Assembly: GCF_000020965.1 (NCBI RefSeq)
Contig: NC_011297.1
Coordinates: 248,001-312,000, forward strand
DNA length: 64,000 nt
DNA from: Dictyoglomus thermophilum H-6-12
GTDB taxonomy: Bacteria > Dictyoglomota > Dictyoglomia > Dictyoglomales > Dictyoglomaceae
Direction: 5' to 3'
Shown here: in pieces, positions 43,724-64,000 of the stretch
How the letters are laid out: the number at the start of each line of letters is the position of its first letter
How positions within the stretch are numbered: the stretch's first letter is position 1
Translations under genes and position numbers: made by a program
The notes under the pieces: generated by a model
Told to the model about the DNA's origin: nothing
The model's database searches: none
The model's input: the letters and a program-made list of their open reading frames with translations, nothing else

Positions 43724-43765
43724 AGCTTAATAAATTTAATAAAAATGAAGGAGGGTAAATTTTAT

Positions 43766-46531
43766 ATGAAGTCAAGTAATATTTACTCACCCTTTGATCT
43801 GAAATGTGAATTTACTACGAATCCTTTAGGCGTAGACAAGAAGAATCCTATATTTTCATGGAAATTAAGACATTTAGAGAAGAACGAAAAACAAACTGCA
43901 TATCAAGTAATCGTTTCTAGTTCATTGGAGACAATAAATGATAACATTGGGGATGTCTGGGATACAGGAAAAGTATTATCATCTGAGCAAGTAATTAAGT
44001 ATGAGGGAAAAGAGTTAGAACCTTGTAAAGTTTATTTTTGGAAAGTTAGATGGTGGGATAGTAAAGATCAGGAAAGTCCTTTCAGTGTAGTTAATACTTT
44101 TGAAACTGGGCTTATGAATGAAGAAAATTGGAAAGCAAAATGGATAACCAAAAAGGAACATAAGTATGAAGTTTATTCTCCAGATGGGGCTCCTTTCGGC
44201 TTAAATTATACAATAGCTTATGCTCCTATGTTTAGGAAAAGTTTCAGTATTTCTAAAAAAATAAAAAGAGCAAGAGTTTATATAGCGGGTTTAGGGCTCT
44301 ACGAACTTTATATTAATGGAGAGAGAATTGGGGATAGAGTCCTTGATCCTGGGCAGACTGATTATAAGAAGAGAGTCCTTTATACTGTTTATGATGTCTC
44401 AAAAAATATAAGAGATGGTAAGAATGCTATTGGGGTTATCTTAGGAAACGGAAGGTATGTGAAGGAATATGGTTATGATTTTCCCAAATTAATAATACAA
44501 GTTCTTGTTGAGTATGAAGATGATTCTATTGAATGGATTGTAAGTGATGAATCTTGGAAAACGACTTATGGACCTATTACTTTAAACAGTTTATATCATG
44601 GAGAGATATATGATGGTAGAAAGGAAATAAAAGGATGGAATTTGCCAGATTTTGATGATTCTACGTGGGAGAATGCAATATTAGCAGAACCTCCTGGAGG
44701 CAAACTATATTCCGAGATTTACCCACCTATAAGAATAACAAAAACTATTAAACCTATAAAAATGTGGAGTCCAGAACCTGGCACTTATGTTTATGATTTT
44801 GGACAAAACTATACTGGATGGATAAAAATAAAAGTAAGAACTAACGAGTCAGGAAAAGAAATAAGAATAAGGCATGCTGAGTTGACCTATGAGGATGGTA
44901 CCTTAAACTATTCAACAAATAGAACTGCTCTTGCAACAGATGTTTATATCACTAAAGGAGAAGGATACGAAGAATATGAACCAAGATTTACATATCATGG
45001 GTTTAGATATGTAGAAATATTAGGGTATCCTGGTGTTCCTACCTTGGAAGATATAGAAGGAAAAGTGGTTCACACAGCGGTAGAATCTAACGGAGAATTT
45101 ATATGTTCTAATGAGTTAATAAATAAAATTCATCACAATATTATCTGGGGACAGCTTAGTAACTTGATGAGTATCCCTACGGACTGTCCACAAAGAGATG
45201 AAAGAATGGGATGGATGGGGGATGCTCAGCTTTCTGCAGAAGAAGCTATTTTTAATTTTGACATGATAGGTTTCTATAGAAAATATCTAAATGATATTAG
45301 AGATGCTCAAAAAGAAAATGGTAGTTTATCTGATGTCATACCACCTTATTGGAGCATATATCCTGGTGATCCTGCTTGGAGCACTGCATATATTACTATA
45401 GCCTGGTATTTATATCAGTACTATGGAGATAAATATGTTCTTGAGGAACACTATGAAGGATTCAAGAAATATGTAGAGTTTTTGAAAAAATTGGCACCAG
45501 ATTACATAGTTAGTTTCTATAAATATGGTGATTGGTGTCAACCCGGGACAGTAAGACCTAAGGATAATTCAGGAGAACTAACTTCTACTTTTTATTTTTA
45601 TCATGATGTCATTACTTTGTCAAAGATAGCAAAACTGTTAGGTAAAGAGGCGGATTATAAATATTATTCAGAACTTGCTGATAAGATAAAGAGCGCCTTT
45701 AATAAGAAGTTTCTAAAAGAAAAGGCTTATGCGTCTATTCCAACAGAGTTGAGTGAAGAAAATGTAAAAGCACTCTTAGAAAAGTATCCTGAAGATATAA
45801 AAGACTTTCTGAGGCAACAATTTACTATTTTATCGTCTTTAGGGATGTTTACAAGTCAGACTTTGAATACTCTGCCTCTATATTTAAATCTTGTTCCTGA
45901 AGATAAGGTGCAAGATGTTTTAAAGACATTATTAGAGGATATTATTATTAGACATGATTATCATCTTGATACAGGAATTGTTGCTACAAGATATATATTT
46001 GATGTTCTAACTAGTTATGGGTATGACGAGGTGGCTTATAAAATAGTTAATCAAAAAACATATCCGAGTTTTGGATATATGATCGAAGAGGGTGCTACAA
46101 CTTTATGGGAAAGATGGGAGAAATTAACATCTACAGGTATGAATTCTCATAATCATATTATGTTTGGTAGTGTAGATGCTTGGTTCTATAGAGTTATTGC
46201 TGGAGTAAGAGTAGGAGAGCCAGGGTGGAATAAAATAATATTTGAGCCTCATCCAGTTGGAGATCTAAAGTACGCCAAGGCGAGATTAAATACCATTAAA
46301 GGGGAAGTGGAGATAAATTGGCAGAAAACTGAAAATATATTTAGTATGAGGATATCTGTACCAGTGAACTCTGAGGGAGAAGTGCATGTACCTAAGTTGT
46401 TTGAGAGATTTGTAGTGAAAGAAGGAGATAATATAATTTATGAAAAAAAGGGTGATCTTGAAGAAAATGAGAAGTATATAGTCATAAGAGTTGGATCCGG
46501 ATCATACAACTTTTATATGGAAAAGATATAA
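43766..46531 (+). CDS. GH78 alpha-L-rhamnosidase
   Basis: 921 residues from ATG 43766 (AGGAGGG 10 nt upstream; the ATG at 43745 overlaps that site). Domain order: N-terminal beta domains (YSPFDLKCEFTTNPLGV; KRARVYIAGLGLYELYINGERIGD), an (alpha/alpha)6 barrel, and a C-terminal beta domain. The acidic catalytic cluster DCPQRDERMGWMGD lies at about residues 472-485; a second acid is expected in GATTLWERWE. No signal peptide, so it releases L-rhamnose inside the cell from glycosides brought in by the upstream transporter. Confidence 0.93.
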   Translation: MKSSNIYSPFDLKCEFTTNPLGVDKKNPIFSWKLRHLEKNEKQTAYQVIVSSSLETINDNIGDVWDTGKVLSSEQVIKYEGKELEPCKVYFWKVRWWDSKDQESPFSVVNTFETGLMNEENWKAKWITKKEHKYEVYSPDGAPFGLNYTIAYAPMFRKSFSISKKIKRARVYIAGLGLYELYINGERIGDRVLDPGQTDYKKRVLYTVYDVSKNIRDGKNAIGVILGNGRYVKEYGYDFPKLIIQVLVEYEDDSIEWIVSDESWKTTYGPITLNSLYHGEIYDGRKEIKGWNLPDFDDSTWENAILAEPPGGKLYSEIYPPIRITKTIKPIKMWSPEPGTYVYDFGQNYTGWIKIKVRTNESGKEIRIRHAELTYEDGTLNYSTNRTALATDVYITKGEGYEEYEPRFTYHGFRYVEILGYPGVPTLEDIEGKVVHTAVESNGEFICSNELINKIHHNIIWGQLSNLMSIPTDCPQRDERMGWMGDAQLSAEEAIFNFDMIGFYRKYLNDIRDAQKENGSLSDVIPPYWSIYPGDPAWSTAYITIAWYLYQYYGDKYVLEEHYEGFKKYVEFLKKLAPDYIVSFYKYGDWCQPGTVRPKDNSGELTSTFYFYHDVITLSKIAKLLGKEADYKYYSELADKIKSAFNKKFLKEKAYASIPTELSEENVKALLEKYPEDIKDFLRQQFTILSSLGMFTSQTLNTLPLYLNLVPEDKVQDVLKTLLEDIIIRHDYHLDTGIVATRYIFDVLTSYGYDEVAYKIVNQKTYPSFGYMIEEGATTLWERWEKLTSTGMNSHNHIMFGSVDAWFYRVIAGVRVGEPGWNKIIFEPHPVGDLKYAKARLNTIKGEVEINWQKTENIFSMRISVPVNSEGEVHVPKLFERFVVKEGDNIIYEKKGDLEENEKYIVIRVGSGSYNFYMEKI

Positions 46532-46558
46532 AACTAAAAATAATTTAAGCTTCTACCT

Positions 46559-46592
46559 AACAGGGGGATATTTTTATAAATGTCCCCCTGTT
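46559..46592 (+). terminator. Rho-independent terminator after the rhamnosidase gene
   Basis: AACAGGGGGA, 14-nt loop, TCCCCCTGTT then tttaat. Ends the oligosaccharide operon. Confidence 0.85.
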
Positions 46593-46599
46593 TTTAATG

Positions 46600-46935: not shown

Positions 46936-46980
46936 ACAGTTATTCTTTATGCTGATGCTTATCTTTATACATATAGGGTG

Positions 46981-47009
46981 TTTACTATTTTTAATTTTTA
47001 TAGTATAAT
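46981..47009 (+). promoter_or_regulatory. Promoter of the LacI-led sugar operon
   Basis: TTTACT at 46981-46986, 17-nt spacer, perfect TATAAT at 47004-47009. Confidence 0.7.
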
Positions 47010-47024
47010 GTTATCGTTAACATT
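47007..47024. promoter_or_regulatory. LacI-family operator
   Basis: AATGTTATCGTTAACATT: seven-base perfect inverted arms (AATGTTA / TAACATT) around a CG-containing centre, the usual LacI/GalR operator form. It covers the -10 box and start site of the adjoining LacI gene, so autorepression is likely, relieved by the pathway sugar. Confidence 0.8.
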
Positions 47025-47051
47025 AAAATAAAAGTTTTAGGGGGATTTATA

Positions 47052-48080
47052 TTGGTCACCATAAAAGATGTGGCTAAAAAAGCAGGGGTTTCAGTGATGA
47101 CCGTATCCCGAGTTATTAATGGGAGTAAGAATGTAAAGGAAAGTACTCGGGAGAAGGTTTTGAGGGCGATCGAAGAGTTAGGTTATGTTCCTAATTCAGT
47201 AGCAAGGAGTCTTATTTTAAATAAAACTTTAACTATAGGACTTGTAATATCAGATATAACAAACCCATTTTTTACAACCATTGCAAGGGGAGTTGAGGAT
47301 ACTGCAATTTCTAAACATTTTACTGTTATCCTTTGTAATACTGACGAAGATCCAGAAAAAGAAATGATGTATGCTGAGGTTTTAGCTAGGAGTAAAGTTG
47401 ATGGGGTTATTTATGCCTCTGCCTCTGGCAAAAAAGCTCCTTTAAAATCTTTATTTTTAAAAAAGATTCCTATTGTTTTAATTGATAGAACTATAGAAGG
47501 CGTAAATGACTTAGATATTGTAAGAGGAGACAGTGTTTTAGGGGCTTACCTTCTTACTAAACATTTAATTGATTTAGGACATAGAAGAATTGGAATTATT
47601 GTAGGAAGTCATTTTATTTCAACAGCAAGGGACAGAATAGAAGGATATAAAAAAGCTCTTAATGAGGCAAATATACCGATAGATGAATCATTAATTAAGA
47701 TCAATGAAAACTCTAAGTTTTCTAAAGAGGATGGCTATAGATTAACTAAGGAACTTTTGAATTTGGAAAATCCTCCTACTGCCATTTTTGGAGGAAACAA
47801 CCTTATGGCTGTAGGAGCACTTCTTGCGATAAGAGAAAGAGGATTAGAGATACCTGAAGATATCTCTCTTGTCTCTTTTGATGATATTGAAAGTTTATCA
47901 GAAGTCTATCCTTTTTTAACGGTTGTTAAACAACCTGCTTATACTATGGGGGTTATTGCTACGGAGATTTTAATAAGGAGAATAGAGAACAGAGATAAAA
48001 TTAAGGAAAAAAGAGAGATACTTCTTACCCCTGAGTTAATCATAAGAAAGTCAACTGCTCCACCCAAAAGAAAAATATAG
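47052..48080 (+). CDS. LacI/GalR-family transcriptional regulator
   Basis: 342 residues. TTG start at 47052 (GGGGG 8 nt upstream); no ATG is available because [24 protein letters not shown], the LacI helix-turn-helix, begins at residue 2. The hinge [11 protein letters not shown] and periplasmic-binding-like sensor ([41 protein letters not shown]) follow. It should sense a free sugar, probably L-fucose, L-rhamnose or a derivative, and control the operon it heads. Confidence 0.93.
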
Positions 48081-48100: not shown

Positions 48101-49921
48101 ATGAACAGGATTTTTCCTGTGAGAGTTGGAGAAAAAAGGTTTATTGAGGAATATCCTAAGGTGGGAATTCGTCCAACCATCGATGGTAGATATGGAGGAG
48201 TAAGAGAATCGTTGGAAGAACAAACCATGAATTTAGCCAAGGCTGTTGCTGAATTTATTGAAAACAATGTTTATTTACCCAATGGAGAGAAAGTTAAATG
48301 TGTGATTCCTCAAAGGTGCATTGGAGGGGTAGCTGAAGCAAGAATGGCGGATGAGTTGTTTAGAAAAGAAGGAGTAGGAGTTTCTATTACTGTTACACCC
48401 TGCTGGTGTTATGGCGCAGAAACCATGGAGATGAGTCTGGATGTACCGAAAGCAGTGTGGGGATTTAATGGGACAGAAAGGCCTGGGGCTGTTTACTTGG
48501 CGGCTGTTTCTGCTGCGCATAATCAGAAGGGTCTACCTATATTTAAGATCTATGGAAAAGATGTACAGGATAAAGATGATTACAGTATACCTTCAGATGT
48601 AAAAGAAAAGATTTTAAAGTTCGTCAAAAGCGCTCTTGCAGTAGCAATTATGAAGAATAAATCTTATCTTTCTATCGGTAGTGTTTCCATGGGTATTGCT
48701 GGATCTATTGTAGATCCTGACTTCTTTGAAGATTATTTGGGGATGAGAGTTGAATATGTGGATATGACGGAGATTATTAGGAGAATAGAGAGAAAAATTT
48801 ATGATGAAGAAGAATTTAAGAGGGCAATGGAGTGGGTGAAGAAATATTGTAAGGAGGGAGAGGATCCCAATCCTCCTGATAAGAGGGTTGATGAAAAGAA
48901 GAAGCAAGAGGTTTGGGAATTTGTAGTTAAGATGACTTTAATTATAAGAGATTTAATGGTAGGAAATAAAAAGTTAGAGGAATTAGGTTATCCTGAAGAA
49001 AGCTTGGGTCACAACGCAATAGTTGCAGGCTTTCAAGGACAACGTCAATGGACAGATCATTTCCCTAATGGTGATTTTACAGAGGCAATTTTAAATACTT
49101 CTTTTGATTGGAATGGGCTTAGACAGCCATATATATTGGCTACAGAGAATGATAGTCTTAATGGTGTGGTTATGCTTTTTGGGCATTTATTGACAAATAC
49201 TGCCCAAATCTTTGCTGATGTAAGAACCTATTGGAGTCCTGAAGCGATTTATAGGGTTACAGGTTGGAAGCCAGAAGGGTTAGCTCAAAACGGAATAATT
49301 CATTTGATAAATTCTGGACCTGCAGCACTTGATGGAACAGGTCAGCAAGAGATTGAAGGTAGACCAGCAATAAAACCATTCTGGGAGATAAGCGATGAGG
49401 AAGTTATAAAATGTTTAGATGCAACTAAGTTCTGCTATGCTAATTTAGGTTATTTTAGGGGTGGAGGATTCTCTACTAAATTCATCACAAGAGGTGGAAT
49501 GCCTATAACTATAAGCAGATTAAATATAGTTAAGGGACTTGGGCCTGTATTACAAATTGCTGAAGGATACACAGTAGAACTTCCTCCTCATGTCCATGAA
49601 ATTCTCGATAGAAGGACAGATCCAACTTGGCCTACCACATGGTTTGTTCCTAAATTAACAGGTAAAGGTGCCTTTAAGAGTGTTTACTCTGTGATGGAAA
49701 ATTGGGGAGCTAATCATTGTGCCATAACCTATGGACATGTAGGAGATTTGTTTATTACTCTCGCTTCTATTTTGAGAATTCCAGTAAATATGCATAATGT
49801 GGAAGAAGAAAGAATATTTAGGCCTAGTGCTTGGTCTATGTTTGGTACGGAGGATTTAGAAGGTGCTGATTTTAGGGCTTGTGTGAATTTTGGTCCTTTA
49901 TATAAGAAGGTAGCCAAGTAA
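48101..49921 (+). CDS. fucI: L-fucose isomerase family protein
   Basis: 606 residues, near the usual 590. [19 protein letters not shown] at the N-terminus, [23 protein letters not shown], the metal-binding Glu/Asp in [13 protein letters not shown] and the His in [13 protein letters not shown] are FucI marks. Interconverts L-fucose and L-fuculose with Mn2+; family members also use D-arabinose and related sugars, so the in vivo substrate could be another 6-deoxyhexose. GGGGAGG precedes the ATG; 20 nt after the regulator. Confidence 0.92.
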
Positions 49922-53462: not shown

Positions 53463-53507
53463 TTACAAATCTGACTGCTAATTGATAAATAGAAGATAGA
53501 AATCATA

Positions 53508-53529
53508 GGGGAGGCTAAAAAGCCTCCCC
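53508..53529 (+). terminator. Rho-independent terminator of the first sugar operon
   Basis: GGGGAGGCT, aaaa, AGCCTCCCC then ttttatttttg. Confidence 0.95.
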
Positions 53530-53547
53530 TTTTATTTTTGTCTCTTT

Positions 53548-53576
53548 TTGACAAATCATATATTTTTATGTAGAAT
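53548..53576 (+). promoter_or_regulatory. Promoter of the RhaS-like operon
   Basis: TTGACA at 53548-53553, 17-nt spacer, TAGAAT at 53571-53576. Leader of about 115 nt; no LacI-type palindrome seen in it. Confidence 0.75.
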
Positions 53577-53695
53577 AAAAACAAATGAAAGTAAAAAATA
53601 ATCAAAAATGAAAAAAATTACTAAGGAGGAGGTGTAAAATTAATAAGCCTTTAATTGTACCTTTTAACTACAAAATCTTATTTGGGGGGAGCTAT

Positions 53696-54700
53696 ATGAA
53701 AAAGTTTTTAATTTTTGTACTTCTTGTATTGCTAATTGTGTTAGGTACAGAGAGTTTTGCTCAAAAGAAGTATGTAATTGGATTAGTAACAAAGACAGCT
53801 GGTAATCCATTCTTTGAGGCAGTAAATAAGGGGGCACAAGAAGCAGCAAAGGAATTAGGTATTACTGTGATACATCAAGCTCCTGCAGCATCAAGTGTAC
53901 AAGGTCAGATTGATATAATTAACTCAATGATTGCTCAAAAGGTAAGTGCAATCTGTATTTCTGCAAATGATCCTGATGCTTTGGTACCTGCATGCAGAAA
54001 GGCACAACTTAGGGGAATTCCGGTAGTAACTTTTGACTCAGCAGTAAAACCACAGGGAAGGAAGTTATTTGTAAACCAAGCAGATATGGAACAGATAGGA
54101 AGAATTCAAGTACAACTTTTGGCAAAGATGATCAACTATGAAGGTGAAATTGCTATACTGAGTGCTGCCTCCACAATGGCAAACCAAAATACTTGGATTG
54201 CTTGGATGAAGGAAGAATTAAAGAAACCAGAATATAGTAAGATGAAATTGGTAGCTATAGTTTACGGGGATGATATAAGGGAAAAGAGTTATAATGAGGC
54301 AATGGGATTATTTAAATCCTATCCTAACTTAAAGGGTATAATTGCTCCTACTACTGTTGGTATTGCAGCAGCTGCTCGTGCCATTGAAGATGCTGGATTA
54401 TCTGGAAAAGTTCAACTTACAGGACTTGGTTTGCCGAGTGAAATGGCGGAGTATGTGAAGAGAGGTACTTGTAAAGCATTTGCTTTGTGGAATCCTATAG
54501 ATTTAGGATACGCAACAATTTATGCTACTTATCGTTTGTTAACTAGAGAAATTAAAGGGAATGTGGGAGAAAAGGTTAATTTGGGAAAACTTGGAGAAAG
54601 AACAATTGTAGATGAAGGAAACGGGGGAAGAATGATAATTCTTGGACCTCCATTTGTATTTGATGCTTCTAATATAGATTATTGGTCTAAGGTCTACTAA
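53696..54700 (+). CDS. Rhamnose-type sugar-binding protein (RhaS-like)
   Basis: 334 residues. Signal peptide (KKFLIFVLLVLLIVLGTESFAQ). VTKTAGNPFFEAVNKGAQEAA and VVTFDSAV show the type 1 binding fold. LGLPSEMAEYVKRGT and ALWNPIDLGYAT are characteristic of the rhamnose ABC binding proteins, more so than of RbsB. Context (rhamnosidase and fucose isomerase upstream) supports L-rhamnose or a similar 6-deoxy sugar. GGGGGGAG precedes the ATG. Confidence 0.88.
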   Translation: MKKFLIFVLLVLLIVLGTESFAQKKYVIGLVTKTAGNPFFEAVNKGAQEAAKELGITVIHQAPAASSVQGQIDIINSMIAQKVSAICISANDPDALVPACRKAQLRGIPVVTFDSAVKPQGRKLFVNQADMEQIGRIQVQLLAKMINYEGEIAILSAASTMANQNTWIAWMKEELKKPEYSKMKLVAIVYGDDIREKSYNEAMGLFKSYPNLKGIIAPTTVGIAAAARAIEDAGLSGKVQLTGLGLPSEMAEYVKRGTCKAFALWNPIDLGYATIYATYRLLTREIKGNVGEKVNLGKLGERTIVDEGNGGRMIILGPPFVFDASNIDYWSKVY

Positions 54701-54712
54701 TAGAAAAATTCT

Positions 54713-54742
54713 AAAGGGGGAGGGTGTTAATTCTCCCCCTTT
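54713..54742 (+). terminator. Attenuating hairpin between binding protein and ATPase
   Basis: AAAGGGGGAG, ggtgttaatt, CTCCCCCTTT followed by tattttta; it ends 30 nt before the next ATG, so partial termination is likely. Confidence 0.8.
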
Positions 54743-54771
54743 TATTTTTAATTGAGAGGAGTTTTCAGATT

Positions 54772-56286
54772 ATGGAAGAGTATATTTTAGAGGTTAGAAA
54801 TATATATAAATCTTTTACAGGAACAAAACCAGTTTTAGAAGGAGTAAGTTTTAGCTTAAAAAAGGGCGAGATCCATGCTTTACTGGGTGAAAACGGAGCT
54901 GGAAAGTCTACATTGATAAAAATTATAAGTGGGGTTCTACAGCCTGACCATGGAGATATTCTATTAAAGGGTAAGAAAGTACATTTTAGTAATCCGTTAG
55001 ATGCTCAAAGACATGGTATTGCAGCAGTTTTTCAGGAACTTGCTTTATTTCCTGAGTTAAGTGTAGCAGAGAATATATTTATTGGGCATTATAAGTATAA
55101 GACTCCTTTTAAAAGTATTAATTGGAAGGATTTATACAAAGAGGCAAAGGATTTTTTAAGTTCCTTAGGTATTGAAATAGATCCCAAGGTTCCTGTTAAG
55201 AATTTGAGTATTGCAGAAAGACAAATAGTAGAAATTGCGAGAGTTCTATCTATAAATCCTGAGATTTTGATTATGGATGAGCCTACATCTTCTTTAACCT
55301 TAGAAGAGACTCAGAGGCTTTTTAGTATTATCAAGAGCTTAAAAGAAAGAGGAACATCCATAATTTTCATCTCTCATAGATTGGAAGAAGTTTTTGAAAT
55401 AGCAGATAGGGTAACGGTTTTAAGGGATGGGCAATATATAGGGACAAAAAATGTGTCAGAGACTAATGTAGACGAACTTATCCAGATGATGGTAGGAAGA
55501 AAGTTAGAAGATATGTATCCAAAGGTAGAAGCAAAAAGAGGAGAACTTTTATTAAAGGTTGATGGTTTGACAAGAAGTGGAGAATTTTATGATGTTTCTT
55601 TTGAACTTTTTGAAGGAGAGGTTTTAGGTATTGCTGGTCTTGTTGGTTCGGGTAGGACCGAAGTTGCTCAAACTATATTTGGTATAAGAAAGAAGGATAA
55701 AGGAAAGATATATGTAAGGGGGAGAGAAGTAGATATAAAGAGTCCAAAAGATGCTATAAGTCTTGGAATTGTATATGTCCCTGAAGATAGACATCAGCAT
55801 GGTTTACTTTTACCTATGGATATAGTTTGTAATATTACACTTCCTGTTTTAGAAAGTTTGGCGAGTAGGGGAATAATAGATAGAAGAGAGGAGGAAATAC
55901 TTACAAAAAGATATTTTGAAATTCTTGATATTAGGGCATCTGGAATAAGGCAGAAGGTAATGAGTCTTTCGGGAGGAAATCAGCAGAAGGTTGTACTTGC
56001 AAAATGGCTTGCTACTAAGCCAAAAGTTCTTATTCTTGATGAACCTACGAGAGGAATAGATGTAGGAGCAAAGGTGGCTATATATCAGCTGATAAATAAG
56101 CTTGCCCAGGAAGGCTATGGTATAATTCTCATTTCATCTGAGATGCCAGAGATTATTGGAATGAGTGATAGGATACTTGTAATGCACGAAGGAAGAATAG
56201 TTGGTACTATCTCAAGAAAGGAAGCAACTCAGGAGAAGATTTTGTCTATGGCTTTAGGAAGAAAGATATATTCGAAAAGTTTGTAA
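54772..56286 (+). CDS. Rhamnose-type ABC ATPase (double NBD)
   Basis: 504 residues from ATG 54772 (GAGAGGAG upstream; earlier in-frame starts lie in the terminator hairpin). Half 1: GENGAGKSTLIKI, FQELALFPELSV, LSIAERQIVEIA, LIMDEPTSSLT. Half 2: GLVGSGRTEVAQTIFG, LSGGNQQKVVLAKWL, LILDEPTRGIDVGAK. Typical of RbsA/RhaT-type ATPases serving two permeases. Energises uptake of the sugar bound by the RhaS-like protein. Confidence 0.9.
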   Translation: MEEYILEVRNIYKSFTGTKPVLEGVSFSLKKGEIHALLGENGAGKSTLIKIISGVLQPDHGDILLKGKKVHFSNPLDAQRHGIAAVFQELALFPELSVAENIFIGHYKYKTPFKSINWKDLYKEAKDFLSSLGIEIDPKVPVKNLSIAERQIVEIARVLSINPEILIMDEPTSSLTLEETQRLFSIIKSLKERGTSIIFISHRLEEVFEIADRVTVLRDGQYIGTKNVSETNVDELIQMMVGRKLEDMYPKVEAKRGELLLKVDGLTRSGEFYDVSFELFEGEVLGIAGLVGSGRTEVAQTIFGIRKKDKGKIYVRGREVDIKSPKDAISLGIVYVPEDRHQHGLLLPMDIVCNITLPVLESLASRGIIDRREEEILTKRYFEILDIRASGIRQKVMSLSGGNQQKVVLAKWLATKPKVLILDEPTRGIDVGAKVAIYQLINKLAQEGYGIILISSEMPEIIGMSDRILVMHEGRIVGTISRKEATQEKILSMALGRKIYSKSL

Positions 56287-56301
56287 TTTAAGGAGGAGAA
56301 G

Positions 56302-57309
56302 ATGGGAAGAGTGGGTTCTGTAAATGAGCTAAAGGAGAAGACTTATGATATTTCAAGGTTAAGAGAGATCGGAATAATCTTTCCTCTTTTTCTTTTTGGA
56401 CTAATTATAGCATTGAGAAATCCTTATTTTATAAGCTGGGAAAATCTTCGTTATATTTTTCTTGACGCATCTATATTAACTATTGTGGCTGTAGGGGAAA
56501 TGATGGTTATACTTACTGGTGGAATAGATCTTTCCGTAGGTTCCAATCTTGCTTTAACTGGAATGATAGTATCAATGCTTTATAGAGACTTACCCAATTT
56601 CCCTGTAATATTAGCTCCTTTGATTGGAATTTTAATTGGAGGAATATGTGGAACTATAAATGGCCTTTTTGTGGCAAAGGGAAAAGTTATTCCTATAATT
56701 GCTACTCTTTCGACTATGTATATATTTAGGGGGATTGTGTATATAATTAGTAAGGGAAGATGGGTTAATGCTCATGAGATGCCCGAAGGCTATAAACTTC
56801 TTACCCGAGTTGAGATATTAGGTATCCCTATATTGGTAATTTATGCAATCATTGTTTTTTTGCTTTTTTATTATCTTTTGAACTACAAGGCCATTGGAAG
56901 GAGTATATATGCTGTTGGAAATAATCCTCAGTCAGCAGTATATATTGGTATTAATAGGGTGAAAGTCTTATTTTTGGTTTATCTTATCTCAGGCATTCTT
57001 GCTGGACTTGGTGGAGTTTTATATACATCCCGTTTTGCCTCTGCAGAAAGCAGTGCTGCAATGGGGTTTGAACTTTCTGCTATTTCTGCTGTGGTTATCG
57101 GAGGAGTAAAAACTACAGGTGGAGCTGGTAAGATAGGTGGGGTAGTTTTAGGAGCTTTGCTCTTGACAATGATTGTTAATGGGTTGAACGTTATGAAGAT
57201 ATCACCTTTTTATAAGCTTGCTCTTCAAGGTTTAATGTTCTTAATTGCCGTAATTGTAGATTCTTTAATTGCAGAGAGATACCAGAAGGGATATAGGAGG
57301 AGAGCATGA
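56302..57309 (+). CDS. Sugar ABC permease (RhaP/RbsC family)
   Basis: 335 residues, about nine hydrophobic segments. VGEMMVILTGGIDLSVGSNLALTG is the family motif; GNNPQSAVYIGINRVKVL is the ATPase-contact loop. AGGAGG precedes the ATG at 56302. First of two different permeases, consistent with a heterodimeric channel as in the rhamnose system. Overlaps the next gene by 4 nt. Confidence 0.9.
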   Translation: MGRVGSVNELKEKTYDISRLREIGIIFPLFLFGLIIALRNPYFISWENLRYIFLDASILTIVAVGEMMVILTGGIDLSVGSNLALTGMIVSMLYRDLPNFPVILAPLIGILIGGICGTINGLFVAKGKVIPIIATLSTMYIFRGIVYIISKGRWVNAHEMPEGYKLLTRVEILGIPILVIYAIIVFLLFYYLLNYKAIGRSIYAVGNNPQSAVYIGINRVKVLFLVYLISGILAGLGGVLYTSRFASAESSAAMGFELSAISAVVIGGVKTTGGAGKIGGVVLGALLLTMIVNGLNVMKISPFYKLALQGLMFLIAVIVDSLIAERYQKGYRRRA

Positions 57310-58262
57310 AGATAAAACTAAAAATAACATGGGAAATAATACTTCTCATATTAATTATACTGGTCTTTTTAGTAAGTAGTTTTCTCTCACCTTACTTTTT
57401 AGATATTGTTAATCTATTAGATACTACTACGAACTTTATGGAAAAAGGTCTTATTTCCCTTGCAATGACTTACATTATCATAAGTGGCAATATAGATATC
57501 TCGGTAGCATCTAATATGGGAATGGCTTCTGCTTTTATGGGAGTTCTTCATAGAATGGGAACTAATATTTGGATCTGTGCCCTTATAGGACTTATAATTG
57601 CTACCTTAGGGGGTTATTTAAATGGATATTTGATTGTAAGATTTAAGCTTCCCGCTATTGCAGTGACCTTAGGTACCTATGCACTATATAGGGGAATAGC
57701 TTATATTTTGCTTCAAGATACAGCTGTAGGCGTTGACTCAGAGAGTTTTATGTATTTAGGTCAGGGTTATATTGCAGGAACACCTATTCCTTTTTCTTTG
57801 GTTTTGTACATTATTTTTGCAATCATTTTTGGTTTTATCCTACATAAAACTACTTTTGGAAGATATGTCTATTCCATTGGAAATAACGAACAGGCATGTA
57901 AATTTTCAGCAATTCCGGTAGAGAAGATAAAGATAATTCTTTTTACCATTACCGGCTTTATGTCTGGGTTAGGAGCTATTCTTCTTACTTCTAGATTGAG
58001 TAGTATAAGACCAGATATTGGTAGTGGCTTGGAGCTTGAGGTTATTGCAACGGTAGTTCTTGGAGGAGTTAGTATTCTTGGAGGATCTGGAAATATGATT
58101 GGGGTTGTCTTATCTTTGTTTTTGATTGGTTTTTTAACCTATAGTTTGAATTTGTTAAACATACCAAGCCAGGTGATAACCATAATTATGGGTTCACTTC
58201 TTGTAGGGACTGTTCTCATATCTAATTTGTTAGAACAAAGGAGAGTAAAAGTAGGTAAATAA
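57306..58262 (+). CDS. Sugar ABC permease (RhaQ/RbsC family)
   Basis: 318 residues, hydrophobic throughout. AMTYIIISGNIDISVASNMGMASA replaces the usual TGGIDLS with SGNIDIS, as in the second rhamnose permease; GNNEQACKFSAIPVEKIKII is the coupling loop; VVLGGVSILGGSGNMIG follows. Start ATG overlaps the RhaP-like stop (ATGA); AGGAGG in the preceding gene end. Confidence 0.9.
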   Translation: MKIKLKITWEIILLILIILVFLVSSFLSPYFLDIVNLLDTTTNFMEKGLISLAMTYIIISGNIDISVASNMGMASAFMGVLHRMGTNIWICALIGLIIATLGGYLNGYLIVRFKLPAIAVTLGTYALYRGIAYILLQDTAVGVDSESFMYLGQGYIAGTPIPFSLVLYIIFAIIFGFILHKTTFGRYVYSIGNNEQACKFSAIPVEKIKIILFTITGFMSGLGAILLTSRLSSIRPDIGSGLELEVIATVVLGGVSILGGSGNMIGVVLSLFLIGFLTYSLNLLNIPSQVITIIMGSLLVGTVLISNLLEQRRVKVGK

Positions 58263-58284: not shown

Positions 58285-58659
58285 ATGGATAGAGAGATAG
58301 GAGCAAGGATTTGGCTTATTCCTGATGCTTATTTACCTGAAATTGGTGATCCTAATTTGCCAAGTCACGAATCTACTTGTATTTTAAATGTCAATGACAA
58401 GCCTGCTAAGGTCAAATTTACTTTTTATTTTGAAGATAAGGATCCCATAGAGTCCAAGGAGATAATTGTACCTCCAAAAAGGACTTGGCACGTAAGACTT
58501 GACAAGTCAGAGGAAATTCTTGGGGTTAAACTTGAGAGAAATGTACCTTTTGCAATAAAAGTAGAGAGTGATGTAAAGATTGTAGTTCAACATTCCAGGC
58601 TGGATACTCGGCAACCTAATCTTTCATATATGACTGCTATAGCTTGGGATGTTGATTAA
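58285..58659 (+). CDS. ASRT-family small-molecule-binding protein (PF07100-like)
   Basis: 124 residues. GARIWLIPDAYLPE, SHESTCILNVNDKPAKV, FYFEDKDPIESKEIIVPPKRTWHVRL and VQHSRLDTRQPNLSYMTAIAW line up with the Anabaena sensory rhodopsin transducer family, a compact all-beta soluble domain thought to bind small molecules such as sugars. No rhodopsin gene is here. Wedged between a sugar transporter (22-nt gap) and catabolic enzymes, it is more likely a sugar sensor, chaperone or mutarotase-like helper. AAAGGTGGT precedes the ATG. Confidence 0.85.
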   Translation: MDREIGARIWLIPDAYLPEIGDPNLPSHESTCILNVNDKPAKVKFTFYFEDKDPIESKEIIVPPKRTWHVRLDKSEEILGVKLERNVPFAIKVESDVKIVVQHSRLDTRQPNLSYMTAIAWDVD

Positions 58660-58723
58660 CATTATTTAATATTGAGACAAAATAACAAAATAAAAGCTAG
58701 TTAAAAAATAGGAGGTGTTTAAA

Positions 58724-61099
58724 TTGCCAAAGGAAATACCTATACTTCCGGAATTTGAACCAGGATATATTGAGGTAGGTGGAAAAATACCTAAATTTCA
58801 ATACAGAAAATCTTTAAAAGAAGAATTAAAAGAAGGAAATATAACTAAAGAAGAGAGTATAGATCTCTTTAAATGCATGCTTATGATTAGAAATTTTGAG
58901 GAAATGATCTATGAGTTAAGAGTTAATAAAGGTAAATATGGAAATATTAGGTATTTATACATAGGTGCTACTCATCTTTCCATTGGACAAGAAGCAGTTC
59001 CTACAGGAGGCATTTCGGTTATTAAAAAGGATGATTATATCACCAGTACTCATAGAGGGCATGGTGATGCTATTGCCAAAAGCTATTTTGGATTAAAAGA
59101 TATGAGTGAAGAAGAACTGATAGCTTTCATTGAGAATAATAGGGAGATTGCAAGTTTTTTGGGCTATGAGTGGAAGAATAAAGATAGAAATACTCTTTAT
59201 CAATATGCTCTTGATATTGAATTGTTTAAGGCAATAGGAGAACTTTTTGGGAAAGAATGGGGGGCTTGCAAAGGAAGAGGAGGATCTATGCACATTGCAG
59301 ATTTTAGTGTGGGGCATTTGGGCGCAAATGCCATTGTTGGTGGCAGTATGGGAATAGCAGTAGGATCTGCTATGGCTTCAAGATACATGGAAGATGGTAG
59401 AGTAACATTGTGTTTCATAGGGGATGGTGCAATGAATACAGGAATAGCTCATGAGGCAATAAATATGGCGTGTATGTCGCAATTTACCAATGGGCTTATG
59501 AGCAAAAGATTTGGAGTTCCTGTAATATTTATGGTTATGAATAATCAATATGGAGAATCAGGGCAACAAAGGGGCGAGGTAACAGGGATAGATTATATTG
59601 CAGAGAGGGGTTTTGCATATAGCAAGAATGGTATGAATGCAGAAATAGTAAATGCTATGAATGTACTTGCAGTAAGAGATGCAGTTAAAAGAGCCGTAGA
59701 AAAGGCAAGAAAAGGAGAGGGACCAATTCTTCTTGAATTTTGGGGATATAGATTTATGGGACATTCATTAAGTGATACCTTAGAAAAACCAGAAGATGGT
59801 ACTTATAGGACTTATGATGAACTACAAGCATGGAAGAAATATGATCCCTTAGAGCTTTATGCCAAAGAGTTGATAGATGCAGAAGTGCTTACTCCTGAAG
59901 AAATTGAGAATCTGAAAAAAGAATATAGACAGAGAAATGAAAATATTGCTGCAAAGGTAATAGAATCTCCTAATCCGGATCCTAAGGATATGACCAAATA
60001 TGTTTTTAAAGAGGATTCCATAGATAGTTTTGTACCTGAAAAGTTTAGAAACGTTACTGTGCTTAAGGAACCAAAATTCAAAGATAGAGATCCAGATGTA
60101 GAAATAAACTACAAAGAAGCAATTATTGAAGCATTGTATCAAGAGATGAAAAGAGATGGAAGAGTATTAATGTGGGGGGAGGATATAGCTGATTATGGTG
60201 GATCTTTTGGAGAGACGAAGGGACTTTTAGAAATATTTGGAAGGGATAGGATATTCAATACTGCCATTTCTGAGGCGGCAATAGTAGGGGCAGGGGTTGG
60301 AGCAGCAATGAGAGGTTTGAGGCCTATAGTAGAAATAATGTATATCGATTTTATTTTAATTGCTATGGATCAAATAGCAAATCAGGCTGCTAAGATGCGT
60401 TATATGTCGGGAGGACAAGCAGAAATACCTCTCACTATAATAACCACCATTGGTGGTGGTAAAGGGTATGCAGGTCAGCATTCTCAGAGTATCGAATCAA
60501 TTCTGACTCATTTCCCAGGATTGAAAGTTGTTGCTCCTTCAGATGCTTATGATGCAAAAGGCTTATTGATAGCTTCCATAAGAGATAAAAATCCTGTAAT
60601 TTATATAGAGCATCAAAATCTACTTCAAGATCCTTTATTACTATCTTTATCAAAGAGAAAGGTTCCTAAAGAAGATTACATAGTCCCTATTGGAAAAGCA
60701 GATATTAAGAGAAAAGCTAAAAATTATGATAAAAGTGTGACTGTAGTTTCATGGTCTGCTATGATTTATGCTGTGCTTAAGGCGGCAGAGGAATTAGAAA
60801 AAGAAGGGATTGAATTAGAGGTGGTAGATCTTAGAAGTTTATATCCTTTAGATATAGATACCATCATTGATTCTGTAAAAAGGACAGGAAGGTTTGCTGT
60901 TGTTACTCAAGCTGTAGAATTCATGTCCTTATCTTCTGAGATAATAACTCAGCTTTATCAAAAAGCTTCGTCTTTTCTTGTTAGGCCACCGATAAGAATA
61001 GGTGCTCCTTTCTGCCCTCCACCAGCTTCTCCTGTTCTTGAAAAAGCGTATTTACCTAATGATAAAAGGATTATAGAAGAAATTAAGAAGTTATTTTAA
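58724..61099 (+). CDS. 2-oxoacid dehydrogenase-type E1, fused alpha and beta subunits
   Basis: 791 residues from TTG 58724 (AGGAGGT 8 nt upstream; the GTG at 58715 overlaps that site). Alpha part: STHRGHGDAIA, CKGRGGSMHIAD, the TPP/Mg motif GDGAMN at 233-238 to NNQYG, FWGYRFMGHSLSD. Beta part from about 459: VEINYKEAIIEALYQEM, GEDIADYGGSFG, SEAAIVGAGVGAAMRG, YAGQHSQSIES, DLRSLYPLD. It decarboxylates a 2-oxoacid or cleaves a diketone with TPP and passes the acyl group to lipoate. An extra segment of about 40 residues (SEEELIAFIENNREI to TLYQYALDIELF) follows HRGHG and may shape the substrate pocket. Confidence 0.9.
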   Translation: MPKEIPILPEFEPGYIEVGGKIPKFQYRKSLKEELKEGNITKEESIDLFKCMLMIRNFEEMIYELRVNKGKYGNIRYLYIGATHLSIGQEAVPTGGISVIKKDDYITSTHRGHGDAIAKSYFGLKDMSEEELIAFIENNREIASFLGYEWKNKDRNTLYQYALDIELFKAIGELFGKEWGACKGRGGSMHIADFSVGHLGANAIVGGSMGIAVGSAMASRYMEDGRVTLCFIGDGAMNTGIAHEAINMACMSQFTNGLMSKRFGVPVIFMVMNNQYGESGQQRGEVTGIDYIAERGFAYSKNGMNAEIVNAMNVLAVRDAVKRAVEKARKGEGPILLEFWGYRFMGHSLSDTLEKPEDGTYRTYDELQAWKKYDPLELYAKELIDAEVLTPEEIENLKKEYRQRNENIAAKVIESPNPDPKDMTKYVFKEDSIDSFVPEKFRNVTVLKEPKFKDRDPDVEINYKEAIIEALYQEMKRDGRVLMWGEDIADYGGSFGETKGLLEIFGRDRIFNTAISEAAIVGAGVGAAMRGLRPIVEIMYIDFILIAMDQIANQAAKMRYMSGGQAEIPLTIITTIGGGKGYAGQHSQSIESILTHFPGLKVVAPSDAYDAKGLLIASIRDKNPVIYIEHQNLLQDPLLLSLSKRKVPKEDYIVPIGKADIKRKAKNYDKSVTVVSWSAMIYAVLKAAEELEKEGIELEVVDLRSLYPLDIDTIIDSVKRTGRFAVVTQAVEFMSLSSEIITQLYQKASSFLVRPPIRIGAPFCPPPASPVLEKAYLPNDKRIIEEIKKLF

Positions 61100-61116
61100 G
61101 AAGGAGGTAATAATTT

Positions 61117-61377
61117 ATGGTGAAAAATGTCATTATGCCTAAAGTTAGTGATGTGATGGAAAATGGTACTGTTGCTTCTTGGCTTAAAAAAGAGGGAGAT
61201 AAGGTAGAAAAAGGCGAGCCTTTATTAGAGATTGAAGTAGAAAAAGCAATAATGGAGATAGAAAGTGAATATGACGGTTATTTAAGAAAGATATTGGTAA
61301 AAGAGGGTGAAACAGTACCTGTAGGTACCATTTTAGCCTATATTACTGATACCTTAGATGAGAATATACCTGAGTAA
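61117..61377 (+). CDS. Stand-alone lipoyl domain protein
   Basis: 86 residues: one biotinyl/lipoyl-attachment domain and nothing else. IMPKVSDVMENGTVASWLKKEGDKVEKGEPLLEIE, then EVEKAIMEIES where the Lys would carry lipoate (usual motif ETDKA), and YLRKILVKEGETVPVG. It supplies the swinging arm that in most complexes is fused to E2. AAGGAGG precedes the ATG; 17 nt after E1. Confidence 0.92.
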   Translation: MVKNVIMPKVSDVMENGTVASWLKKEGDKVEKGEPLLEIEVEKAIMEIESEYDGYLRKILVKEGETVPVGTILAYITDTLDENIPE

Positions 61378-61390
61378 GGAGGTTTAAACT

Positions 61391-62095
61391 TTGAACGAGA
61401 ACAATGTAAGCAAGAGAATTCCTTTAAATACTGTAAGAAGAACTATTGCCGAAAGATTATCAAAAAGCAAGCAATCAATTCCTCATTTTTATGCTGTAGC
61501 TGAAGTTGATGCTACAAATTTAGTTGAAGCAAGAGCTAATTTTGTCAATGAGAAAAATATAAAGATTTCTTATGATGATTTCATAATTAAAGCTACAGCC
61601 CTTTCTATGAAAGAATTTCCATTGATAAATGCTCGTTTTAGAGAAACAGAAATAGAGCTTTTAGAACACATAAATATTGGTTTTGCCGTAGCCTTAGGAG
61701 AAGAGGGTGTAGTAGTACCTGTTATAAGAGATGCTGATAAAAAGGCTATAACTCAAATATTTGAAGAAAGGATTTCTCTTGTAGAAAAAGCAAGAAATAG
61801 AAAATTAAGAGTAGAAGATATCTCTGATAGAAGTATTACCGTGAATAATGTAGGCGTATTTGGAGTGAGATCAATACTTGCTATAATTAATCCTCCAGAA
61901 GTAGCTATTGTTACATGTGGGGCTATTCAGGATAGAGTGGTGGTAGTTAATGGGGAAGTAAGAATCAGAAAGATGATGGATATAACTCTCTCAGCAGATC
62001 ATAGGGTAATAGATGGAGCATATGGATCTAAGTTTCTTATGAAAATAAAGGAATTTTTAGAAAGTCCTGATTTATTAGTAAGCAGGGAGGAATAA
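61391..62095 (+). CDS. E2 acyltransferase catalytic domain, without lipoyl or subunit-binding domains
   Basis: 234 residues from TTG 61391 (AAGGAGG upstream). RIPLNTVRRTIAERLSKSKQSIPHFYAVAEVDATNLVEAR opens the 2-oxoacid dehydrogenase acyltransferase fold; INIGFAVALGEEGVVVPVI and the active-site ADHRVIDGAYG (HxxxD) complete it. Transfers the acyl group from lipoate to CoA. The usual N-terminal lipoyl and E1/E3-binding domains are missing; the former is the gene just upstream. No E3 gene is present in the window. Confidence 0.92.
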   Translation: MNENNVSKRIPLNTVRRTIAERLSKSKQSIPHFYAVAEVDATNLVEARANFVNEKNIKISYDDFIIKATALSMKEFPLINARFRETEIELLEHINIGFAVALGEEGVVVPVIRDADKKAITQIFEERISLVEKARNRKLRVEDISDRSITVNNVGVFGVRSILAIINPPEVAIVTCGAIQDRVVVVNGEVRIRKMMDITLSADHRVIDGAYGSKFLMKIKEFLESPDLLVSREE

Positions 62096-62097
62096 AG

Positions 62098-63369
62098 ATG
62101 GAGACAATAGCTTTGAGAATGTATGGAAAGATGGATTTGAGACTTGAGAAATTTGAACTTCCTCAGATTAAGGAAGATGAAATACTTGCAGAGATAATTT
62201 CAGATACTAGTTGTCCTTCAACCTATAAAGAAATTTTACAAGGGCCAGATCATCCAAGAGTTCCAAAAGATGTGGACAAGAATCCTGTTATTGTAGGACA
62301 TGAAATGGCAGGGGTAATTTTGAAGGTAGGATCTAAATGGAAGGGTAAATATGAGGAGGGTCAAAAGTTTACAATTCAACCTGCCTTACTGTATGAAAAG
62401 GGTCCTGTAGGAGTGTTAAGCGCTCCAGGCTATTCATATAAATATTTGGGAGGTCTTGCCACAAAGGTTATTATTCCTAACGAGGTTATGGAACAAGATT
62501 GCCTTTTAATTTATGAAGGAGATGCCTTTTATAAAGCATCTTTAGTAGAGCCTTTGTCTTGTGTCGTAGGTGCTGTAAATGCTCAATATCATACTAAGGA
62601 AAATTCTTATGAGCATATAATGGGGATAAAACGTGGTGGTAAGACTGCAATTCTTGGTGGTGCAGGACCTATGGGACTTGCTTTCCTTGCTTATCTTATC
62701 TATGGTCCTCAAAATCCAAGCTTACTGGTTATTACTGATATTGATGATATGAAATTACAAAGAGCTATGAGAGCTTTTCCTAAGGAAGAAGTGAATAAAA
62801 GAGGAATAGATATTAGATTTGTAAATCCAACGAAAGATCAATCTTATAAAGATATAAGATATGATGACATTTTTGTTTTATATCCAAGTCCTAAATTAGT
62901 AGAAGAAGCGGATTCTCTTCTTGCTAGAGATGGTTGTTTAAATTTCTTTGCGGGGCCTACCGATCATAACTTTACTGCTTGTGTTAACTTTTATAAAGTC
63001 CATTATGATAAACATCATTTTGTGGCTACATCTGGTGGTAATGCTGATGATATGAAAATAGCATTAGATCTTGTGCAAAGAAAAATAATAGATCCTTCTC
63101 CTATGATTACTCATGTAGGTGGTTTGAATGTGGCAAAGGATGTGCTTTTGAACTTTCCTAACATTCCGGGTGGTAAAAAGTTGATCTATACTCATATAAG
63201 ATTTCCATTATCAGAAATAGAGGATTTTGAGAGATTAAGTGTAGAGGGACCTAAAGAGTTGAGAGATATATATAGAGATTTAGCTCAAATAGTGAGAAGT
63301 AATAACGGCTGGTGGTGTAAAGAAGCTGAAGAATATTTATTGACAAGGGGGGAGAAAATAGATGTGTGA
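62098..63369 (+). CDS. Zinc-type alcohol dehydrogenase, L-sorbose-1-P reductase-like
   Basis: 423 residues. GroES-like half: SDTSCPSTYKE and VGHEMAGVILKVG supply Zn-ligand Cys and His. Rossmann half: KTAILGGAGPMGLAFLAYLI and VITDIDDMKLQRA (NAD-preferring Asp). Large inserts and VEPLSCVVGA recall the SorE-type polyol/sugar-phosphate reductases. Probably oxidises or reduces a sugar or polyol in the pathway. ATG 2 nt after the E2 stop; overlaps the next gene by 8 nt. Confidence 0.85.
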   Translation: METIALRMYGKMDLRLEKFELPQIKEDEILAEIISDTSCPSTYKEILQGPDHPRVPKDVDKNPVIVGHEMAGVILKVGSKWKGKYEEGQKFTIQPALLYEKGPVGVLSAPGYSYKYLGGLATKVIIPNEVMEQDCLLIYEGDAFYKASLVEPLSCVVGAVNAQYHTKENSYEHIMGIKRGGKTAILGGAGPMGLAFLAYLIYGPQNPSLLVITDIDDMKLQRAMRAFPKEEVNKRGIDIRFVNPTKDQSYKDIRYDDIFVLYPSPKLVEEADSLLARDGCLNFFAGPTDHNFTACVNFYKVHYDKHHFVATSGGNADDMKIALDLVQRKIIDPSPMITHVGGLNVAKDVLLNFPNIPGGKKLIYTHIRFPLSEIEDFERLSVEGPKELRDIYRDLAQIVRSNNGWWCKEAEEYLLTRGEKIDV

Positions 63370-64000
63370 ATGTCAAAGATTAAAAGATAGGGTTGCGATT
63401 GTTACAGGTGCAGCTCAGGGGCTTGGAGAGGCTCTTTCTTATAGACTTGCTAAAGAGGGATGTAATGTAACTGTGGCTGATATAAAAATAGAAAAACTTC
63501 AAGAGGTAGCAAAAAGGATTGAAGAAGAATATGGCAGAAAGGCTCTTGCGGTGAAGTGTGATGTTACCAGCGAAGAAGATGTAAAAAATATGGTAGAAAA
63601 AACTGTTGAGGCCTTTGGAAAGCTTGATATAATGGTAGCCAATGCTGGTATTTTGATTGCTCATGATATTACGGAGTTTCCTCTTGAGGATTGGAAGAAG
63701 GTAATAGATGTTAATTTGACAGGATATTTCCTTTGTGCAAGAGAGGCAGCAAAAGTTATGGTAAAGCAGAAGTCTGGAGTAATAATTCAGATCAATTCAA
63801 AATCTGGAAAAAAAGGAAGTTTTAGAAATTCTGCTTATTCCGCATCAAAATTTGGAGGAATAGGATTTACTCAAAGTATTGCATTAGATCTTGCACCTTA
63901 TAACGTAAGAGTGGTAGCGGTATGTCCAGGGGATCTTTTAGATTCTCCACTATGGAAGGAAAGCCTTTATGATCAGTATGCTAAGAGATTAGGAATAAGT
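63362..64000 (+). CDS. Short-chain dehydrogenase, SrlD-like (partial)
   Basis: 213 residues seen; the C-terminus is beyond the window. ATG 63362 with GGGGGGAG upstream. VAIVTGAAQGLGEALS (NAD-binding TGxxxGxG), VANAGI, IIQINSKSGKKGS, catalytic YSASKFGG and CPGDLLDSPLW. The stretch GYFLCAREAAKVM with INSKSG matches sorbitol-6-phosphate 2-dehydrogenases closely, so a polyol/ketose (phosphate) oxidation is likely. Last visible member of the 53.7-64 kb operon. Confidence 0.88.
   Translation, partial: MCECQRLKDRVAIVTGAAQGLGEALSYRLAKEGCNVTVADIKIEKLQEVAKRIEEEYGRKALAVKCDVTSEEDVKNMVEKTVEAFGKLDIMVANAGILIAHDITEFPLEDWKKVIDVNLTGYFLCAREAAKVMVKQKSGVIIQINSKSGKKGSFRNSAYSASKFGGIGFTQSIALDLAPYNVRVVAVCPGDLLDSPLWKESLYDQYAKRLGIS

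Follow-up and report, generated by a model that had tools for sequence, protein, structure and literature searches.

Near the end of a 64,000-nucleotide stretch of Dictyoglomus thermophilum H-6-12 DNA (contig NC_011297.1, positions 248,001 to 312,000; hereafter the window) lies an operon that joins the genes of a 2-oxoacid-dehydrogenase-type complex, namely a fused E1, a free lipoyl protein and a bare E2, to those of two sugar dehydrogenases behind a rhamnose importer. The operon is real and conserved, built of known enzyme families in what appears to be a new combination. We consider it probable that its E1 cleaves a methyl ketone derived from a sugar. With slightly less than even confidence, and from sequence comparisons, we further propose a specific route in which the methyl end of a 6-deoxyhexose would be released as acetyl-CoA through a carbonyl shift by SorE- and SrlD-like enzymes followed by the action of the E1 complex.

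An earlier note on this DNA had described a RhaS-like transporter, an ASRT protein, the E1, lipoyl and E2 genes, a zinc-dependent alcohol dehydrogenase (ADH) and a short-chain dehydrogenase/reductase (SDR), all on the plus strand with short gaps or overlaps, and each of them was found again. They form a single run, with intergenic gaps of 2-55 bases in the E1 block and with overlaps between the ADH and SDR genes and between the two genes found on reading past position 64000, which encode a TIM barrel and an aldolase. The unit is made up as follows:

53696..54700, plus strand: RhaS-type rhamnose-binding protein, first gene of the unit (NCBIfam RhaS equivalog, 540 bits, cut-off 342)
54724..58262, plus strand: ATPase and two permeases of a monosaccharide ATP-binding cassette (ABC) importer, of ribose/arabinose-type families (listed open reading frames 54724-56286, 56302-57309 and 57306-58262, all plus strand)
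58285..58659, plus strand: ASRT, small-molecule (sugar) binding protein, probable metabolite sensor (Pfam PF07100, 149 bits, cut-off 25)
58715..61099, plus strand: fused alpha+beta E1, thiamine diphosphate (ThDP)-dependent, acetoin-type (E1_dh, Transket_pyr and Transketolase_C in one chain of 794 amino acids)
61117..61377, plus strand: free lipoyl carrier protein (Pfam Biotin_lipoyl, 81 bits)
61391..62095, plus strand: bare E2 acyltransferase catalytic domain (Pfam 2-oxoacid_dh, 258 bits, sole domain)
62098..63369, plus strand: SorE-family zinc-dependent ADH, predicted ketose-1-phosphate reductase (48% full-length identity to annotated sorE)
63362..64159, plus strand: SrlD-family SDR, hexitol-phosphate dehydrogenase (equivalog, 408 bits), crossing the window end at 64000
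64164-65153 (window-equivalent, beyond the window end), plus strand: EryC-like TIM barrel
65143-65811 (window-equivalent, beyond the window end), plus strand: FucA-like class II aldolase

The E1 block is thus part of a transcription unit starting at 53696, which a terminator-like hairpin and a promoter-like TTGACA/TAGAAT at 53462-53696, identified by eye, part from an upstream unit carrying a LacI regulator, FucI and another ABC importer (ABC1). The aldolase is followed by a short SDR gene on the opposite strand, and the next operon downstream encodes a MalEFG-type importer, RhaI (702 bits, cut-off 531) and RhaB (528.4, cut-off 527.95). The RhaS, FucI, RhaI and RhaB equivalogs around the block support the deoxyhexose setting that the earlier note had proposed.

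The catalytic signature of the E1 (H87, H113-R114-G115-H116 [HRGHG] and K122) is identical to that of five acetoin-type E1s, and acetoin dehydrogenase converts CH3-CO-CHOH-CH3 to acetyl-CoA and acetaldehyde. Residue 85, two positions before the catalytic His87, is Ala; it is Ala, Gly, Thr or Pro in the fused, Omnitrophota and DXR-II-linked E1 clades and Phe in the five acetoin E1s and the two pyruvate dehydrogenase (PDH)-like E1s compared, and to judge from the alignment a small residue here should widen the pocket. In a tree of the E1 beta half, the window E1 falls in a clade of 43 rows (support 100/99), apart from the acetoin (100/99), most 2-oxoacid (100/99) and DXR-II-linked (99/97) E1s, with human PDH elsewhere on a long branch. 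Two reference acetoin operons with butanediol/acetoin reductases (loci L098 and L099) form a well-supported clade of their own that does not include the window E1. The complex therefore shares with acetoin dehydrogenase (AcoABC plus E3) the HRGHG motif, a predicted ThDP-dependent cleavage of CH3-CO-CHOH-R and a lipoyl protein that scores highest in NCBIfam against the lipoyl part of acetoin dehydrogenase E2 (86 bits), but differs from it in its E1 clade, its fused E1, its lipoyl and E2 parts on separate chains, the lack of an E3-binding domain, the small residue in place of Phe and the lack of butanediol or acetoin enzymes nearby. Tyr versus His at position 113 was tried as a marker of 2-oxoacid E1s and proved unclean, as an orphan annotated as PdhA (L101) has HR; a structure model of the E1 (mean predicted local distance difference test score 77) was not used, its active-site loops scoring below 50.

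The same evidence bears on the plainest alternative, a pyruvate dehydrogenase that would oxidise pyruvate formed from lactaldehyde via lactate, the neighbouring dehydrogenases being unrelated to it. This is the sole E1 of the genome, the other two Transket_pyr proteins being of DXS and transketolase size, and it matches PDH models, though under the cut-off of all the curated PDH E1 models; furthermore, organisms with RhaEW take rhamnose to lactate and probably to pyruvate (PMC3870299). Against this stand the separation of its clade from the 2-oxoacid E1s, the acetoin-type HRGHG, a residue 85 other than Phe, the strong linkage of the E1 to hexitol-phosphate enzymes and the operon itself, in which no lactaldehyde or lactate dehydrogenase was seen. 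Across 80 related E1 loci the block did not lie mainly next to branched-chain amino acid or pyruvate genes, a setting that by the earlier note would have spoken against its proposal. We regard the pyruvate dehydrogenase explanation as quite unlikely.

As for the rest of the complex, the E2 sequence has the catalytic HRVIDG motif and carries its catalytic domain alone, whereas the E2 of pyruvate and other 2-oxoacid complexes unites it with lipoyl and E3-binding domains in a single polypeptide. A lone E3 lies at C1:382509-383900, about 74 kb from the block (lipoamide dehydrogenase, 559 bits, cut-off 409), and the genome also has a LipB-like gene and GcvH. No E3_binding domain was found in the seven Dictyoglomota genomes searched, the control search being positive in 10 of 14 standard genomes, so the complex must assemble in another way; two sister-genus genomes examined have lipoyl and E2 parts in one chain, again without this domain, which is retained in the relatives L009, L046, L054, L076 and L095. 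Canonical LipA scored under its cut-off in all Dictyoglomota genomes, and a weak radical-SAM match near GcvH (G000:C1:1343705-1348268) may be another type of lipoyl synthase.

The two dehydrogenases point to sugar phosphates. The identity of the ADH to annotated sorE (L-sorbose-1-phosphate reductase) extends over 99-100% of the length, and the ADH retains the stretch that contains the S-x-x-K and G-x-x-H positions common to the SorE family. The SDR exceeds the cut-off of the SrlD (sorbitol-6-phosphate dehydrogenase) equivalog (307 bits), is 50% identical to annotated srlD and has as its best match in the PDB 5o3z, a sorbitol-6-phosphate dehydrogenase. A tree places it among the SrlD proteins (clade support 98/97), where the SDRs of L054, L082, L050 and an aldolase-SDR fusion of L022 also fall, and apart from SorD, acetoin reductases and RhaW, whose clade (100/100) is separate; a role as the lactaldehyde dehydrogenase RhaW was thereby ruled out. 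The earlier suggestion that the two dehydrogenases feed a cleavage like that of acetoin dehydrogenase is supported, but the two are not generic oxidases that make a diketone: since they are SorE and SrlD homologues, diketone cleavage was dropped as the leading explanation.

In the L-sorbose route, such a pair turns a ketose-1-phosphate into a hexitol-6-phosphate and then into a ketose-6-phosphate. By analogy, the pair would shift the carbonyl of a ketose-1-phosphate to the opposite end in a redox-neutral manner, and on L-rhamnulose-1-phosphate or L-fuculose-1-phosphate it would yield a 1-deoxyketose-6-phosphate; by our own derivation, the carbinol oxidised by SrlD would match the C5 configuration of an L-ketohexose-1-phosphate, as in rhamnulose and fuculose. 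In Klebsiella, sorE is part of the sor operon, alongside genes for an SDR and a sorbose phosphotransferase system (PTS). The window resembles that SorE plus SorD/SrlD pair in its adjacent homologues and in the same presumed net carbonyl shift; it differs in having no PTS, in the added rhamnose ABC importer, E1/E2 and EryC-like enzyme, and in an SDR of SrlD type rather than of the Klebsiella SorD type. Escherichia coli YggP (L132:822-9785) also belongs to the SorE family, with 46% identity to the window ADH, and is clustered with cmtAB, transketolase and erythrose-4-phosphate dehydrogenase.

The proposed route builds on what is observed, namely the gene identities, families, order and conservation and the presence of an isomerase, a kinase, an E3 and LipB. 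The operon would import L-rhamnose; RhaI or FucI would then form L-rhamnulose or L-fuculose, and RhaB the ketose-1-phosphate. From the third step onward we infer all substrates: the SorE-like enzyme would reduce the C2 carbonyl to give a 6-deoxyhexitol-1-phosphate, and the SrlD-like SDR would oxidise C5 to give a 1-deoxyketose-6-phosphate (CH3-CO-CHOH-R), a homologue of acetoin, these two steps together amounting to the redox-neutral L-sorbose carbonyl shift on a deoxy sugar. The acetoin-type E1, which would fit this compound because CH3-CO-CHOH-R resembles acetoin and the HRGHG motif is common to both kinds of E1, would split C2-C3 oxidatively with the free lipoyl protein, the bare E2 and the remote E3, giving acetyl-CoA, NADH and a tetrose-4-phosphate. 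The latter, by our own derivation D-threo or L-erythro, would need isomerisation before entry into the pentose phosphate pathway, and the EryC-like enzyme would take the C4 sugar phosphate towards erythrose-4-phosphate and that pathway.

The TIM-barrel protein has as its nearest solved structure 4k3z, deposited as a Brucella D-erythrulose 4-phosphate dehydrogenase, which from its old name we take to be EryC. In the profile comparison 4k3z led with 123 bits, ahead of an uncharacterised protein at 96 and of the next family at 28, and the fold agreed with 4k3z at TM-scores of 0.80/0.86, psicose/tagatose epimerases coming next at 0.60-0.66 (query-normalised). The activity of EryC was later established as that of a tetrulose-4-phosphate racemase (PMC5992420, PMC11508834). 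The TIM barrel may accordingly act, as an EryC-like enzyme, on a tetrose-end sugar phosphate; since the E1 chemistry by itself would already yield a tetrose, the likeness to EryC agrees with the route independently. The likeness to the Brucella erythritol pathway lies in this best sequence and fold match, while the identity is about 20%, no EryA, EryB or EryD genes surround the block, and the tetrose phosphate would derive from hexose cleavage.

Five Dictyoglomota genomes share the order E1-lipoyl-E2-ADH-(MtlD)-SDR-TIM-aldolase, with 65-97% identity per protein in the four relatives, and a chance association is thereby excluded. In three of the five, all of the sister genus, a mannitol-1-phosphate-dehydrogenase-like (MtlD-like) gene stands between ADH and SDR. 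A small cupin resembling D-lyxose isomerase (PF07385), a candidate tetrose-phosphate or sugar isomerase, directly follows the aldolase gene in the sister genus (L124:5625-6173) and lies elsewhere in D. thermophilum (G000:C1:547117-547575). About 85,000 species genomes were scanned, and neighbours were counted on the 67 of the 80 retained loci that were of useful length: within about 5 kb of the E1, an MtlD-like gene was present in 15 and an ADH/SorE relative in 16. These dehydrogenase-linked loci span at least seven phyla (Spirochaetota, KSB1, Bacillota, Armatimonadota, Omnitrophota, Atribacterota and Dictyoglomota), and related E1s repeatedly adjoin FGGY kinases and sugar isomerases as well. 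L054 (Elusimicrobia) has an SrlD-like SDR, aldolase, ADH, RhaB, E1, E2 and E3; L082 (Armatimonadota) E1, aldolase, an SrlD-like SDR, RhaA and RhaB; and L046 (Atribacteria) an MtlD-like enzyme, ADH, E1, an EryC-like TIM barrel, two FGGY kinases, a RhaI-like isomerase, an SDR and a lipoyl-E2. Of six Spirochaetota loci (L018, L023, L025, L029, L030, L032), most have a short operon in which an MtlD-like gene comes after E1, and in most a gene for a CHASE2-adenylate cyclase lies a short way upstream; the E2 genes of L030 lie elsewhere in its genome. On a Clostridioides difficile plasmid (L092:11998-24000), E1ab-E2-E3, a sugar-binding regulator, PTS IIABC, a class II aldolase and a lipoate ligase form what is likely another sugar-linked member.

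The dehydrogenase partners also allow an oxidative transketolase, in which an ordinary ketose-6-phosphate (e.g. fructose- or sorbose-6-phosphate) would give glycolyl-CoA and a tetrose phosphate and the operon would serve a sorbose-like sugar. SorE and SrlD act on non-deoxy hexoses in the known L-sorbose pathway, MtlD-like partners normally give fructose-6-phosphate and E1 folds are akin to transketolase; however, the operon has a rhamnose-binding protein and is placed between FucI and RhaI/RhaB, fructose-6-phosphate requires no such complex, and the thiolase that follows E1 in L019, L028 and L041 suits acetyl-CoA. We consider this possibility quite unlikely.

The aldolase has the PSSE, HTH and NHG motifs and, with all curated models under cut-off, its best PDB match is FucA (111 bits). 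At the catalytic position, that of FucA Glu73, it has Glu as FucA does and not the Asp of AraD; an AraD-type epimerase joining the rhamnose and fucose branches is disfavoured on this ground. The aldolase probably serves a parallel classical branch to dihydroxyacetone phosphate (DHAP) and lactaldehyde, and since canonical isomerase, kinase and aldolase are all present, the complex may not be the only route but one branch of the pathway. Compared with the classical and RhaEW pathways, the window has RhaI, RhaB and a class II aldolase nearby as they do, but no RhaW- or AldA-type lactaldehyde dehydrogenase was found in the operon, and the E1/E2/SorE/SrlD/EryC-like genes are extra.

The aldolase could also stand at the head of a C3-level route, in which it would give DHAP and L-lactaldehyde, the ADH and SDR hydroxyacetone or methylglyoxal, and the E1 acetyl-CoA and a C1 unit. 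Acetoin-type E1s act on small methyl ketones, the residues and PDB neighbours of the aldolase are FucA-like, and E1 has both an aldolase and an SDR as neighbours in Dictyoglomota, L054 and L082, the two being fused in L022. We nevertheless judge it unlikely: SorE and SrlD, matched at 48-50% identity, are sugar-phosphate enzymes and the SDR is not RhaW; the EryC-like TIM barrel, the MtlD-like enzyme and the lyxose-isomerase-like cupin would be left without a role; many E1/MtlD/ADH loci have no aldolase; and formaldehyde or methylglyoxal would arise. The probability left over by the deoxyhexose route and the three alternatives goes to some other explanation.

Several observations weigh against the 1-deoxyketose-phosphate route. 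A working-looking FucA-type aldolase sits in the E1 operon, and aldolase genes are also found in L054 and L082, while the route gives this enzyme only a side role. At L022:9861-11888, near E1 and SorE, a class II aldolase and an SrlD-type SDR form one fused protein, a hint that the two are more closely connected than the route accounts for; the layout of this fusion is that of RhaEW with an SDR of a different clade, and it apparently arose independently. The cell may also run the classical branch to DHAP and lactaldehyde, and this could even be the dominant one. The TIM barrel has only about 20% identity to EryC, and a comparison of the E1 with DXS and transketolase for phosphate-binding residues gave nothing convincing. 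Neither D. thermophilum nor D. turgidum has the MtlD-like gene of the sister genus, so that the pathway differs or one dehydrogenase is dispensable; the G005 block stands behind a DeoR regulator without a rhamnose transporter, and there is no SorE or MtlD near E1 in L082. Finally, RhaI and RhaB sit in an operon separate from the E1 block, and a search for a regulator site common to the two operons found none. A LacI regulon uniting them was likewise unsupported, the sole LacI-type palindrome at an operon start being that at 47008.

A second group of E1s offers a parallel. On plasmids of Sinorhizobium, Aminobacter, Agrobacterium, Priestia and Paracoccus (L093, L094, L095, L096, L106), split E1 relatives lie near a SAF-domain oxidoreductase, that of Agrobacterium matching Brucella DRL (DXR-II; PDB 3upl) at 701 bits, with E2, mostly E3, and either a PfkB kinase with an ABC importer or a glucitol-type PTS. 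DRL/DXR-II makes methylerythritol phosphate (MEP) from 1-deoxyxylulose 5-phosphate (DXP; PMC3847144), and single substitutions let the E. coli PDH E1 form DXP in vivo (PMC3424233), which shows that an E1 can handle 1-deoxyketose-phosphate chemistry. From their gene content, these clusters look like a path from methylerythritol via MEP and DXP to acetyl-CoA and glyceraldehyde-3-phosphate, and such catabolism is a possible reason for DXR-II in genomes also holding DXR-I. They share with the window an E1 complex beside an enzyme of a 1-deoxyketose phosphate (DXP), a sugar transporter and sometimes a kinase; they differ in E1 clade, in the split E1, in an E2 with an E3-binding domain (Agrobacterium) and in the presumed C5 branched substrate. 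More tentatively than the route itself, we suggest a widespread, unrecognised lipoate-dependent "1-deoxyketose-phosphate dehydrogenase" class, which would take rhamnose or fucose to acetyl-CoA and tetrose-4-phosphate in Dictyoglomota, and methylerythritol via DXP to acetyl-CoA and glyceraldehyde-3-phosphate in rhizobia, Paracoccus and Priestia.

Upstream of the E1 unit, the window contains further sugar genes:

43745..46531, plus strand: GH78-type alpha-L-rhamnosidase (resembles alpha-L-rhamnosidase models, scores under their cut-offs), a likely source of rhamnose
47052..48080, plus strand: LacI-family regulator of the upstream fucose/ABC1 unit (palindrome ATGTTATCGTTAACAT at 47008, just 5' of the gene)
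48101..49921, plus strand: L-fucose isomerase FucI of the LacI-headed unit (fucI equivalogs, 1110 and 1035 bits), the likely supplier of a second 6-deoxyketose

Two long upstream regions, at 36915-37883 and 46531-47052, resemble each other in parts (e.g. TTCTTTGTAAAxAGACCATATT and CTCCTCACTATTATCTACTCTTATA) and may be what is left of a mobile element.

The pairing of ASRT, probably a sensor of a sugar metabolite, with this type of transporter is not new: ASRT genes adjoining monosaccharide ABC transporters and sugar enzymes were described in 2009, with ASRT noted in Dictyoglomus (PMC2739507). As to the undescribed pathway that the earlier note had suspected here, no description of an acetyl-CoA route for deoxyhexoses or of the DXR-II-linked route was found in the literature searched, and a 2013 survey of rhamnose utilisation makes no mention of Dictyoglomus, a dehydrogenase complex, acetoin or lipoyl (PMC3870299).

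The phosphorylated breakdown of rhamnose and fucose, two major sugars of plants and algae, is taught as ending in DHAP and lactaldehyde. If the proposed route is true, a path to acetyl-CoA and tetrose phosphate would change how carbon and redox are balanced in anaerobes that degrade polysaccharides and would account for orphan PDH-looking E1 complexes in many uncultured phyla, and DXP or 1-deoxyfructose-6-phosphate would be predicted to drive CoA-dependent NADH formation. The DXR-II-linked clusters would, furthermore, help to account for the presence in some bacteria of an additional DXP enzyme that seems redundant, a question posed earlier (PMC3847144).

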